A DNA stretch of 64,000 nucleotides from Thermodesulfovibrio yellowstonii DSM 11347. Lineage in GTDB: Bacteria; Nitrospirota; Thermodesulfovibrionia; Thermodesulfovibrionales; Thermodesulfovibrionaceae. Below the pieces are notes generated by a model. That model was not told where the DNA came from. It searched no databases and saw nothing but the letters and a program-made list of their open reading frames with translations. Each line of letters begins with the position of its first letter. Positions within the stretch are counted from its first letter, which is position 1. Location of the stretch: NCBI RefSeq assembly GCF_000020985.1, contig NC_011296.1:1726001-1790000 (forward strand), written 5' to 3'. Shown here piece by piece: positions 8,483-12,905 of this stretch. A program made the position numbers and the translations under genes.

Positions 8483-9331
8483 CTATTTTACAATGAGCAC
8501 AGAACGATCACTGTATTCCAGAACCCTCTGGGAAACACTACCTATAAGAATCCCTTTTATAAATCCCTTGCCATGACAGCCCATCAAAATAAGAGAAGCA
8601 TCTTCTTGAGAGGCAAGATTAATAATTTCTTTGTATGGTTTGCCCTGAATTAAATTAGAGTTCACCTTAAATCCAGTTTTCTCAATCTCTTGCTTTAAAG
8701 CATTTAATTTTTTCTTATTTTCTTCCTTGCTTCCATCTTCCATCACATGAACAATTACTGCTTCCCTTGCTCCTGCATTATATAAAAGGGGTATGTATTT
8801 TTTTGCACGTTCTGAATGCTCTGACCAGTCAGTGGTATAGAGGATTTTTCTGAAAAGATTTGGGCAGAATTGCTCTGTGAGCTTACCTTCAATCATCCTA
8901 ATTGTATGATATTTTACCACTAAAACAGGCAAAGAAGACTTCTTAACAACTCCATCTGTGGTGGAGCCAATAAATAACTCATCAATCATATGTCTTTTAT
9001 GTCTTCCTGTTACGATAAGGGAAACATTTTCAAGGGCTGCTTCGTTGACAATCTCGTTTACAACCTTACCTGAAGTTATTTTTGTCTTTACTGACAATTC
9101 GTTTGATTTAAGATAATCTAAATATTCTTTCATTTTTTCATTTGCAGACTGTTTAATCTGCTCAATATCAACAGGCAATCCTGATTCCTTTGCATAATAA
9201 ATAGCCTCTTCATCTATAACATAAAGCAATACAATCTCTTTCAATCCTGCTGATTTTAAACATGTGAGGCTTTTTAAAATTGGAAAAGAAAGCTCATCAA
9301 ACTTTGTAGGATAAAGAATCTTTGAAAACAT
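8483..9331 (-). CDS. Tandem universal stress protein (two UspA domains)
   Basis: 282 aa made of two UspA domains (about residues 1-140 and 150-282). Each carries the ATP-binding type signature near its end: IVTGRHKRHMIDELFIGSTT followed by PVLVVK, and ILMGCHGKGFIKGILIGSVS followed by VLIVK. Usp proteins bind ATP and help cells tolerate stress or regulate transporters. It is 17 bp downstream of the PiT-family transporter gene, probably in one operon, with a regulatory role on that transporter possible. The same pairing of transporter and Usp recurs at 11.3-12.9 kb. Confidence 0.93.
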   Translation of the reverse strand: MFSKILYPTKFDELSFPILKSLTCLKSAGLKEIVLLYVIDEEAIYYAKESGLPVDIEQIKQSANEKMKEYLDYLKSNELSVKTKITSGKVVNEIVNEAALENVSLIVTGRHKRHMIDELFIGSTTDGVVKKSSLPVLVVKYHTIRMIEGKLTEQFCPNLFRKILYTTDWSEHSERAKKYIPLLYNAGAREAVIVHVMEDGSKEENKKKLNALKQEIEKTGFKVNSNLIQGKPYKEIINLASQEDASLILMGCHGKGFIKGILIGSVSQRVLEYSDRSVLIVK

Positions 9332-9347
9332 TTTAATCCCTCCTATT

Positions 9348-10304
9348 TTATTTGGCTCCTAATAGCCATGAAAAAATTTTGTATAGAAAATATGCAGTGA
9401 ATCCTGAAACAATCAGAGAGACAAACCAGTTTATTACAATCTCCTTTACAACTTTAAGCTGAATGTATTTTACTCCTCTTGCAAGCCCTGCACCACCAAT
9501 TGCTCCCACAATTGCCTGATTCATTGATGTAGGATAACCAAGTAGCGCTGCAATATAAGCTGTTGTTGCCTGTCCAAACTGTGCTCCTATGGCACTGTTT
9601 ATCTCAAGCTGAACAATATGAAGCCCTACTTTTTCAAGTAAGGGTCTACCCCAAGTTAAAGCACCTATTGCAACAACAACTCCTCCTATGAAACCAGCTA
9701 ATAAAAGAGATTTCACAGTTCCGCTTCCATAAAGGACACTTACAGCCAATCCGCTGTTGTTAGCTCCCAATGTAAAAGAGGCATAACAGCAAGCAAGTAT
9801 AAGAACAGCTCTTTTTATTTTTTCTGCTTTCTTAACTGCTCCCACTGTTTTAGTAAAAATAAAACCTAAGAGACATCCAACCAGTGGAGTTCCAACCCAT
9901 GTAATAGCAAGAGGAAGCATTGTTTTTTCCCATGCGACTGGAGCATCTATTGCAAGACCAACTCCAACAATTGAAAAACAGGCTAATTGAGCTGTTGATA
10001 TAGGCAGCTTAAGCCATGTGTTAACAGCAGTAACGAGCGCTGCATTAAGCATCATGATCATTGCTCTGAAAGGCGTAAGATACTCAATAGGAATAATTCC
10101 TGCACCAACAGTTTTAATAACCTCATGGCTCTGAAGCGTGGCGCCCAACAAAGCACATACTGCCATTATTAGTGTGGCAGTTCTGATATCAAATATTTTT
10201 GCTCCATAAGCTGTTCCCATCACTGCACCAGTATAATGGGAACCAATGGTCCATCCAAAAAACAATCCAGCAATAATCATCCCTACAATGTAAAAAGTCT
10301 CCAT
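9348..10304 (-). CDS. PiT-family anion transporter (phosphate or sulfate)
   Basis: 318 aa, about ten membrane segments, inorganic phosphate transporter (PiT/PHO4) family. The second family signature is present (FTLGANNSGLAVSVLYGSG), but in the first repeat the usual GAND box is replaced by IGSHYTGAVMGTAYGAK. Members include phosphate importers and the sulfate permease CysP, so in a sulfate reducer either substrate is possible. The start at 10302-10304 is chosen over an ATG 15 bp upstream because GGGAGGTG lies just before it. It is followed by a tandem Usp gene and preceded by two GTAAC/GTTAC inverted repeats. Confidence 0.85.
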   Translation of the reverse strand: METFYIVGMIIAGLFFGWTIGSHYTGAVMGTAYGAKIFDIRTATLIMAVCALLGATLQSHEVIKTVGAGIIPIEYLTPFRAMIMMLNAALVTAVNTWLKLPISTAQLACFSIVGVGLAIDAPVAWEKTMLPLAITWVGTPLVGCLLGFIFTKTVGAVKKAEKIKRAVLILACCYASFTLGANNSGLAVSVLYGSGTVKSLLLAGFIGGVVVAIGALTWGRPLLEKVGLHIVQLEINSAIGAQFGQATTAYIAALLGYPTSMNQAIVGAIGGAGLARGVKYIQLKVVKEIVINWFVSLIVSGFTAYFLYKIFSWLLGAK

Positions 10305-10325
10305 ATATTCACCTCCCATTTTAAT

Positions 10326-10435: not shown

Positions 10436-10792
10436 ATGAAGGTGCTAAAAAGAAATAACAAACTTAGACATTTACACTATTTTGAAGAAAGGTTTTTAAA
10501 TGAACTTATTGAAAAAATAAGGGTATCATATCCCCTAATAAAAAAAATCATTCTTTACGGTTCAAAGGCAAGAGGTGATTTTACTGAAGAATCAGACATT
10601 GACCTTCTTTTCATCACAAAAAAACCCCTTAATAAGCAAGAAAAATATGAAATTTTTGATTTCATTTCTGAACTTGAGCTTAAGTATAATGTTTTAGCAT
10701 CTGCTTTATTTATAAATGAGAAAGAACTTAAAGAGAGAAGTTTATTCAGAGAAATAAAAAAAGACGGGATTACACTATGGTTGAGAGAATAA
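10436..10792 (+). CDS. MNT-domain nucleotidyltransferase (antitoxin-type)
   Basis: 118 aa minimal nucleotidyltransferase of the polymerase-beta fold. The catalytic motif GSKARGDFTEESDIDLLF (about residues 41-58) has the GS and the DxD-like pair, so it may be active. A TATAAT-like box ends just upstream and the leader is very short. Its end overlaps the HEPN gene by 16 bp. Such MNT-HEPN pairs are toxin-antitoxin modules in which MNT can modify (for example AMPylate) the HEPN partner. Function here is inferred from family and pairing. Confidence 0.88.
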   Translation: MKVLKRNNKLRHLHYFEERFLNELIEKIRVSYPLIKKIILYGSKARGDFTEESDIDLLFITKKPLNKQEKYEIFDFISELELKYNVLASALFINEKELKERSLFREIKKDGITLWLRE

Positions 10793-11181
10793 GTAAGAAA
10801 GAGGCTTTAATAAGAGCTAAGGATGAGTTCAAAAGAGCTGAAGAAGAATTAAAAGCAGCTAATATTTTACAAGAAAAAGAGTTTTACTATAAGAGTATTG
10901 TGTCAGCTTACTATACAGTTTATCATGCCGCAAAAGCACTTCTACTTATTAAATGTGTTGATCCAAAGACCCATGAAGGGGTTGAAAGAATGTTTGGATT
11001 ATACTATATAAAAACTGGTGATTTTGACACAAAAATAGGGAAAGTAATTGGAAGACTTAGAAAAATGAGAGAGGAGGCTGATTACTATCCAGAAATTCCT
11101 TTTGATCGCGAAGATTCAAAAGAAGCAATAGTTTTAGCCAGAGAATTCTTAGAAAAAGCTAAGAATATCATAAAAATTTAA
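10777..11181 (+). CDS. HEPN-domain protein (UPF0332-like), partner of MNT
   Basis: 134-aa all-alpha protein. The stretch KSIVSAYYTVYHAAKALLLI and the later ADYYPEIPFDREDSKEAIVLA pattern are typical of HEPN/UPF0332 proteins found next to MNT nucleotidyltransferases. The RNase motif R-x4-6-H of active HEPN toxins is not seen; the nearest candidate, RMFGLYY, has no histidine. The active site may therefore be lost, or this subfamily may not act as an RNase. It overlaps the MNT gene by 16 bp and is surely co-translated with it. Confidence 0.85.
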   Translation: MVERISKKEALIRAKDEFKRAEEELKAANILQEKEFYYKSIVSAYYTVYHAAKALLLIKCVDPKTHEGVERMFGLYYIKTGDFDTKIGKVIGRLRKMREEADYYPEIPFDREDSKEAIVLAREFLEKAKNIIKI

Positions 11182-11220
11182 TTATCATTGACAGATTAAC
11201 TCAAAATTTTTTATTTTAAA

Positions 11221-11310
11221 AAAGGCGATGGAGTTCGCCTGTAAGTGCCTCTGATTTTCAGGGGCTGATAACTCCTACCTTAAAGGTAGAGTTATACCCT
11301 GAAAAGGAGG
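11221..11310 (+). ncRNA. Fluoride riboswitch (crcB motif) with expression platform
   Basis: GGCGATGGAGTTCGCC (11224-11239) and GCTGATAACTCCTACC (11264-11279) are the conserved halves of the crcB/fluoride aptamer. A long downstream hairpin can form between ATAACTCCTACCTT (about 11268-11281) and AAGGTAGAGTTAT (11283-11295), extended by TTTTCAGGG (11255-11263) pairing with CCCTGAAAA (11297-11305). This hairpin uses the 3' aptamer half and partly covers the AAGGAGG ribosome site (11304-11310), a plausible translational switch. It precedes the cation:proton antiporter by 6 nt. Motif recognised by eye, not by a covariance model. Confidence 0.88.
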
Positions 11311-11316
11311 CGTATT

Positions 11317-12477
11317 ATGTTGGAGATCCTTCTTCAAGCATCTTTTTGGTTTTTACTTGCTTTGATTTCTACAATCATTGCAACAAAGCTCCGTTTAGCC
11401 ACAGCTTTAACTGAAATAGCAGTTGGAGCAATTGCAAGTCTTGCTATTACTGGAACAGGAATATCAATTGGAGAAAATGACCTCTGGATTAAATTTATTG
11501 CCTCTGTTGGAGCTATAATGCTTACATTTTTAGCTGGAGCAGAGCTTGAGCCCGATGTATTAAAGTCTCGCTGGAAAGAGACAATGGGAATTGGTTTAAT
11601 CGCCTTTATTGCTCCTTTTCTTGGATGCACAGCAGTTGCTCACTATATTCTTGGCTGGAGTGCAAAAGCAAGCTGGCTTACAGGAGTTGCTCTTTCTACA
11701 ACTTCTGTAGCAGTAGTTTATGCAGTTATGCTTGAACTTGGACTTAATAAAACAGAATTTGGAAAAGTCATTCTTGCAGCTTGTTTTGTCAATGATCTTG
11801 GAACAGTAATAGCGCTGGGACTAATTTTCTCTCCATTTACCACTAATTCTCTTATTTTTATGGTTGTGATGATAGTAGTTGCTATTTTAGTTCCCTTTAT
11901 TACTCCAAAAATATTTAAAAAATTCGGAAATAAACCTTCAGAGTTTGAAACAAAGTACCTACTATTTATTCTCTTTGGTATCGGTGCTCTTGCACTGTGG
12001 TCTGGTAGTGAAGCAGTGCTTCCAGCCTATATTATCGGTATGGTTTTAGCTGGAACTGTTGGTAAGGATAGCCAACTTATAAGAAGGCTTAGAACTCTTA
12101 CAATAGGTTTTTTAACTCCAATTTATTTCTTAAGGGCTGGATATTTTGTTTCAATTCCTTCAATTATTGCTGCACCTATAGCTCTTTTGGTATTATTAAG
12201 TGGAAAAATGATTACTAAAATTGCTGGAGTTTATCCTGTGACTAAACTATTTGAATTCAGACATAAAGAAGGAATGTATACAACTCTTCTTATGTCAACA
12301 GGTCTTACCTTTGGCTCAATCTCAGCACTCTTTGGCTTAACCCACGGAATAATTGACCAGAATCAGTATTCACTTTTAATTGCAGCAGTAATTGGTAGTG
12401 CTGTTATTCCAACAATCATAGCAAATGCCTTTTATCTACCAAAATATCTCTTACCTAAGACAAAAAAGGAGGGCTAA
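11317..12477 (+). CDS. Cation:proton antiporter, CPA2 family
   Basis: 386 aa with about 12 membrane helices, Na+(K+)/H+ exchanger fold. Typical features are the N-terminal LRLATALTEIAVG, the FLAGAELEPD segment, and the catalytic-region CFVNDLGTVIALG with Asn-Asp (ND pair) in the unwound helix. It follows a fluoride riboswitch and a strong AAGGAGG, so expression should rise with fluoride; antiporters are known members of fluoride-resistance regulons besides CrcB/Fluc and CLC-F. A fluoride/HF-stress role is inferred from the riboswitch. Usp follows after 2 bp. Confidence 0.92.
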   Translation: MLEILLQASFWFLLALISTIIATKLRLATALTEIAVGAIASLAITGTGISIGENDLWIKFIASVGAIMLTFLAGAELEPDVLKSRWKETMGIGLIAFIAPFLGCTAVAHYILGWSAKASWLTGVALSTTSVAVVYAVMLELGLNKTEFGKVILAACFVNDLGTVIALGLIFSPFTTNSLIFMVVMIVVAILVPFITPKIFKKFGNKPSEFETKYLLFILFGIGALALWSGSEAVLPAYIIGMVLAGTVGKDSQLIRRLRTLTIGFLTPIYFLRAGYFVSIPSIIAAPIALLVLLSGKMITKIAGVYPVTKLFEFRHKEGMYTTLLMSTGLTFGSISALFGLTHGIIDQNQYSLLIAAVIGSAVIPTIIANAFYLPKYLLPKTKKEG

Positions 12478-12479
12478 AT

Positions 12480-12905
12480 ATGCTTAAAAAAATTTTAGTT
12501 GCCTTTGACGGCTCTGAGGAATCTGTGAAAGCTTTTAATTTTGCTTTAAGCCTCGTAGATGAGTTTGCTTCAAAGGATAAAGAAATCCTTCTTCTTTCTG
12601 TAGCACAGCCGCCAGAACATGGCGAGATAGTAGAAACTAAAGCAGTTATTGATAGCGCCACTGAATACTACAAAAGAGAGTTTGAAAAAATATTGCCAAT
12701 AGCAAAAGCACATTCAGTAGAAGTAAAAACTGATATTGCAGTAGGACATCCAGCTGACCAGATTGTAAGATACGCCTCAGAAAATGGCTTTGATATGATA
12801 ATAATGGGGCAAAGAGGTATGTCAAAGATTGAAAGATGGTTGCTTGGTTCAGTATCCCGTAGAGTTGCTACATACGCTACATGTCCTGTGGTGATTGTGA
12901 AATAG
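12480..12905 (+). CDS. Universal stress protein, single domain
   Basis: 141-aa UspA domain. It starts MLKKILVAFDGSEESVKAF and ends with the nucleotide-binding signature GQRGMSKIERWLLGSVSRRV followed by CPVVIVK. It lies 2 bp after the antiporter gene and shares its riboswitch-controlled message. Usp domains often regulate CPA-type antiporters, so this may be its ATP-sensing partner; that is inference from context. Confidence 0.93.
   Translation: MLKKILVAFDGSEESVKAFNFALSLVDEFASKDKEILLLSVAQPPEHGEIVETKAVIDSATEYYKREFEKILPIAKAHSVEVKTDIAVGHPADQIVRYASENGFDMIIMGQRGMSKIERWLLGSVSRRVATYATCPVVIVK

Follow-up and report, generated by a model that had tools for sequence, protein, structure and literature searches.

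The locus analyzed here raises the question of how a bacterium copes with fluoride when its fluoride riboswitch precedes an antiporter gene instead of an exporter gene. Only Fluc and CLC-F are named as bacterial fluoride exporters, and they are usually mutually exclusive (PMC11139923). The locus lies in a 64,000-nucleotide stretch of the Thermodesulfovibrio yellowstonii DSM 11347 genome (hereafter the window, whose positions are used throughout). A first-pass annotation of the window had noted that the controlled genes are not crcB/fluc; this holds more strongly than was claimed, as PF02537 (Fluc/CrcB) and PF00654 (CLC) had no match in the whole genome, while the control genomes were positive.

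An Rfam cmscan placed the fluoride riboswitch RF01734 at 11215-11284 of the + strand, with 54.1 bits (gathering score 34; E = 3.1e-12) over the full-length model (1-64), and this was the single match in the genome (one sequence of 2,003,803 bases). Both aptamer halves reported in the first-pass annotation were thus recovered by the covariance model, and only its starting point, 11221, had to be moved, since it falls 6 nt inside the model start. On the same strand, the scan delimited P1 (GGCG/CGCC, 11224-11227/11236-11239), P3 (11247-11254/11258-11265) and the pseudoknot (GGAGTT/AACTCC, 11230-11235/11270-11275). A sigma-70-like promoter (TTGACA, 18 nt, TATTTT; 11188-11217, +) was recognized by a consensus scan alone, with 10 of 12 matches; RNA from this site would begin near 11224, where P1 has its first G. 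The Shine-Dalgarno sequence AGGAGG (11305-11310, +) stands 6 nt 5' of the ATG at 11317, which opens the gene for a 386-aa CPA2-type antiporter (11317-12477, +; PF00999, 129.6 bits), followed by that for a 141-aa single-domain universal stress protein, Usp (12480-12905, +; PF00582, 112 bits). These matches confirmed that the predicted fluoride riboswitch sits directly 5' of an antiporter-Usp operon, as first annotated. Directly 5' of the riboswitch there is a head-to-tail overlapping pair of MNT nucleotidyltransferase and HEPN genes (10436-11181), a typical toxin-antitoxin arrangement, and about 1 kb upstream a two-domain Usp lies beside a PHO4/CysP-like anion permease (8483-10319, - strand).

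The MFE fold of 11215-11330 reached -45.3 kcal/mol, compared with -27.0 +/- 3.6 for shuffled sequences (z = -5.1; 0/200 as low). Here GGTAGAGTT takes up the 3' pseudoknot strand by pairing with AACTCCTACC in an anti-aptamer hairpin (11270-11293, +; arms AACTC-C-TACC at 11270-11279 and 11285-11293). An OFF-state helix, which spans 11247-11311 (+) in the folds of the window and four congeners, takes up both P3 strands and is predicted to cover the Shine-Dalgarno: its outer part joins GCCTCT (11247-11252, the 5' P3 arm) to GGAGGC (11306-11311), and its inner part joins TTTTCAGGG (11255-11263, the 3' P3 arm) to CCCTGAAAA (11297-11305), all on the + strand. The competing hairpin that had been proposed from the 3' aptamer half next to the Shine-Dalgarno is therefore present in the MFE fold, and the GCCTCT/GGAGGC pairing that hides the Shine-Dalgarno is an addition to the expression platform as first described.

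The unpaired probability of the Shine-Dalgarno was at most 0.02 in free folds of the window and the four congeners, versus 0.18-0.40 when the aptamer was held, that is, with its helices fixed and the pseudoknot strands blocked. In the same sequences the OFF state was better than the pseudoknot-less aptamer state by 12-21 kcal/mol at 37 C, and in the window by about 12 kcal/mol at 65 C, in energies that leave out the contributions of the pseudoknot, Mg and fluoride; an advantage of 12-21 kcal/mol implies that switching must be kinetic, during transcription. Among six Thermodesulfovibrio-group sequences the OFF pairing was preserved in 95.8% of the cells, and at one pair the change was compensatory (U-A in L092 and G052 where the window has G-C). 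Covariation was rejected as proof of the OFF helix, since these six sequences contain a single compensatory pair and their covariation was not above that of shuffles. No intrinsic terminator was detected on the + strand of the window, and the absence of a U tract after the anti-aptamer hairpin ruled it out as a transcription terminator. By analogy with known fluoride riboswitches, and in line with the predicted folds, fluoride-free RNA would tie up the 3' pseudoknot strand together with both arms of P3 and hide the Shine-Dalgarno, whereas fluoride bound during transcription would hold the aptamer, leaving the Shine-Dalgarno free and the operon translated (an ON switch).

The equivalent place is taken by a classical terminator in most relatives at the order level (for example GGGTAGGAGTTTTTTT), and for this reason the window lineage seems to have switched from transcriptional to translational control. 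In genome G057 (locus L006) nothing before the ATG resembles a Shine-Dalgarno except the terminator arm AGGAG, which gives the locus the look of an intermediate between the two platforms; the passage from one to the other within close relatives would form a short evolutionary series. Locus L190 of a congener (genome G052; about 1130-1400, in reversed orientation) retains the riboswitch and the platform with most of the operon deleted; the deletion joins 11 antiporter codons to the Usp tail, and this genome has CLC. In another congener, what is left of the antiporter gene contains an in-frame TGA, and no riboswitch was matched there (G047:C1:535787-536323), indicating more than one loss of the operon within the genus.

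In Nitrospirota, every one of the 29 antiporter loci whose upstream sequence was intact had the riboswitch just upstream. Among 80 named antiporter loci from many phyla, 69 had enough upstream sequence, and in 55 of these the riboswitch lay at most 1.6 kb upstream on the same strand. From this comparative genomics we infer a CPA2 branch dedicated to fluoride, with the antiporter as one of its members. The antiporter was present in 39 of 198 genomes of the phylum (E up to 1e-40), 32 of which had neither Fluc nor CLC, as against 37 of the 159 genomes without it. Other genes were also observed under fluoride riboswitches. Another antiporter family, also of PF00999 and closest to the NCBIfam model PRK05326 (K+/H+ antiporter; KhaP-like CPA), lies directly under them in other Nitrospirota at L186-L189, L192-L194, L196 and L197, in some cases in genomes lacking both Fluc and CLC. 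At L179-L185, in several Nitrospiraceae genomes with no Fluc, CLC or antiporter match at the cutoffs used, the riboswitch precedes the gene for an ABC exporter-like protein of about 565 aa. Dynamin-like GTPases are directly under the riboswitch or adjoin the antiporter-Usp pair (L195 and L198; at about +1700 in L007, L012 and L030).

The relationship between the antiporter and Fluc was examined in group f23, which we read as the Nitrospiraceae. Among its 175 genomes, 43 carried the antiporter and 68 Fluc, with only one carrying both; Fluc was thus found in 1/43 antiporter genomes versus 67/132 of the others (Fisher p = 5e-10), and the exclusion also appeared within genera (g52, p = 7e-7; g77, p = 0.01). 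The two genes alternate repeatedly on an rpoB marker tree of 140 of the 175 genomes. In 25 independent pairs differing in the antiporter, Fluc differed in the opposite way in 8.4 on average and in the same way in 0 (median sign p = 0.008), a result that stood when the comparison was limited to genomes with a completeness of at least 90% (p = 0.016) or to the main antiporter type (p = 0.016). Incomplete genomes were rejected as the cause, since the exclusion persists at this completeness. CLC was likewise discarded as a hidden replacement, there being none in the Nitrospiraceae genomes of the phylum sample.

Sister genomes showed the two genes exchanged at the same chromosomal site. Fluc lies between a gene for a 454-aa protein and galE in G085, and the antiporter occupies this slot in G364, with flanks 88-91% identical; G360 and G344 show a Fluc/antiporter swap with a common upstream flank (96% identity); and in G314 the riboswitch and antiporter stand at the site of Fluc in G110, G117 and G333, with both flanks 70-78% identical. 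Two different slots, in two genera, imply at least two independent replacements. Such swaps between conserved flanking genes, together with the lack of a detectable riboswitch at the G364 copy, are what would be seen if the exclusion reflected incompatibility or the exchange of mobile cassettes at hot spots, with no function in common. We consider this quite improbable, because the swaps involve at least two distinct slots, spread over two genera, and the exclusion reaches far beyond the genomes in which a common slot was demonstrated. The exclusion, the alternation on the tree and the shared slot in sisters instead suggest that the antiporter probably does Fluc's job in Nitrospirota. An earlier report of antiporter-Fluc exclusion or replacement was not found in the literature searched, the coverage of which was incomplete; this comparative evidence is the new part, the riboswitch-antiporter link being already known.

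Beyond the phylum the pattern was different. In the wider locus set (80 named antiporter loci from many phyla), Fluc was also present in 36 of the 49 antiporter genomes that it reached outside the phylum sample, and for this reason a global exclusion was rejected; 10 of the 13 genomes without Fluc lacked CLC too. Fluc was close by on the same strand at 24 of 61 testable loci of this set. Coexistence outside the phylum indicates that the antiporter and Fluc are not simply equivalent everywhere, nor always redundant. Both the coexistence and the same-operon arrangement would suit an accessory of pH or ion homeostasis under fluoride stress, which would leave cytoplasmic fluoride unlowered and make the loss of Fluc unrelated. 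Among the classes linked to fluoride riboswitches, Na+/H+ antiporters come second in frequency to exporters (Baker et al. 2012, cited in PMC11139923), and they have been read in terms of pH homeostasis (PMC11139923), so that the accessory role is the published interpretation; the occurrence of another, unrelated CPA family under riboswitches of this type also agrees with it. However, this role predicts neither repeated exclusion of Fluc nor replacement in the same slot, and H+/cation antiporters normally import H+, which would not correct acidification. On balance we give it less than even odds.

The antiporter has no C-terminal regulatory domain, and its relatives are NapA and KefC. The AlphaFold model (pLDDT 83.8) was best matched in the PDB by NapA 5bz2 (Z 39, rmsd 4.1 over 371 residues), with KefC 8bxg at Z 27; profile and predicted fold thus assign the protein to CPA2. 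TIGR00932 scored 116.5, under its subfamily cutoff of 238.3. The features of a KefC-type K+ efflux system were lacking, with no KTN domain and NF002924 at 42.8 versus a cutoff of 752. In 101 homologues D160, K301 (aligned with a lysine of KefC), S130, T129, T331 and others were invariant; position 159 was N in 59 and T in 42 (N159-D160 in the window protein), and the adjacent aspartates (DD) that mark the ion site of the electrogenic NapA type were absent in all 101, replaced by [NT]D. K297 was present in 100/101, position 273 was R or K, and the family has polar STTS and STGLTFG stretches.

The proposal that we give about an even chance, taken as a whole, is that of a fluoride ON switch with the antiporter replacing Fluc and fluoride leaving as HF through cation/H+ exchange. 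According to comparative genomics, the antiporter would be the stand-in for Fluc in Nitrospirota. Its most likely mode would be proton-coupled exchange, H+ in and K+ or Na+ out, by which the cytoplasmic pH would fall towards that outside; trapped fluoride would then re-protonate and exit as HF, with a net loss of fluoride plus cation, and Usp would be an accessory stress factor. The conserved aspartate and lysine slightly favour this exchange, and the second, KhaP-like CPA family under the riboswitch counts for it. The first-pass annotation had likewise predicted a fluoride/HF response by cation-proton exchange, which fits a NapA/KefC relative with D160 and K301, although such a protein may instead transport fluoride directly. 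The size of the benefit tells against HF exit: pH-driven leakage could lower cytoplasmic fluoride a few-fold at most, far below what a membrane-potential-driven channel achieves.

The larger benefit favours a protein that carries fluoride itself, by F-/H+ exchange or HF export, as a third bacterial exporter family with the crossover-elevator (NapA) fold. This reading, a serious one that we hold with less than even confidence, is consistent with a site less acidic than that of NapA (N/T for the first Asp), the extra, near-invariant K297 and R273, the polar stretches, and the replacement of Fluc in the same slot with exclusion in Nitrospiraceae, an exclusion of the kind described for Fluc and CLC-F (PMC11139923). 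Against direct export stand the invariant residues D160 and K301 (the CPA2 lysine), which are those expected of cation/proton exchange, and the coexistence of Fluc in most antiporter genomes outside the phylum. Only tentatively, then, could the riboswitch-linked CPA2 subfamily as a whole be described as a third exporter family, carrying fluoride directly on a NapA-type elevator fold and repeatedly displacing Fluc in Nitrospirota. Under either HF exit or direct carriage, our results suggest the antiporter as a possible alternative way for cells to shed fluoride, which, if true, would explain how phylum members without Fluc or CLC cope with it. The recurrent replacement of Fluc at the same site offers a testable case of a cation/proton-antiporter fold alone giving fluoride relief.

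The second gene of the operon was suggested in the first-pass annotation to gate the exchange. In a stronger form, Usp would gate the antiporter in response to ATP, and the operon would encode a two-part regulated exchanger. Usp is directly downstream (3') of the antiporter in 59 of 76 loci of the wider set, and a motif scan found in it G-2x-G-9x-G(S/T), typical of ATP-binding Usps (GQRGMSKIERWLLGS). However, 11 Nitrospiraceae riboswitch-antiporter loci examined had no adjacent Usp, so that gating is not supported as a general mechanism despite the frequent adjacency, and Usp was rejected as an obligate partner in Nitrospiraceae. In Enterobacter cloacae FRM, moreover, a fluoride-induced operon comprises uspA, eno, ppaC and crcB (PMC5533749), its Usp going with crcB, enolase and pyrophosphatase and no antiporter. 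ATP-responsive gating therefore appears doubtful, with little likelihood of being correct.

Compared with known systems, the window riboswitch shares with the crcB motif (RF01734) the aptamer fold, the conserved core, the 3' pseudoknot strand within the platform and the ON-switch logic, but its platform would employ both P3 strands to conceal the Shine-Dalgarno, whereas order-level relatives use a terminator. The E. cloacae operon (PMC5533749) likewise combines a fluoride riboswitch with a Usp gene, its further genes being crcB, eno and ppaC in place of an antiporter. The antiporter has the NapA fold and its conserved ion-site aspartate, with the first aspartate of NapA changed to N or T, and the fold and TM10 lysine of KefC, whose KTN domain it lacks; from both it differs in the extra K297, R273 and the STGLTFG stretch in TM11. 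The riboswitch-linked Na+/H+ antiporters (Baker et al. 2012, as cited in PMC11139923) present the same association of cation/proton antiporter and riboswitch, but their published role is pH homeostasis, whereas the Nitrospirota antiporter excludes and replaces Fluc. With Fluc (CrcB) and CLC-F it has in common the control by fluoride riboswitches and the mutual exclusion, and with Fluc also the chromosomal slot, although these proteins are unrelated to the antiporter, whose fluoride transport is putative.
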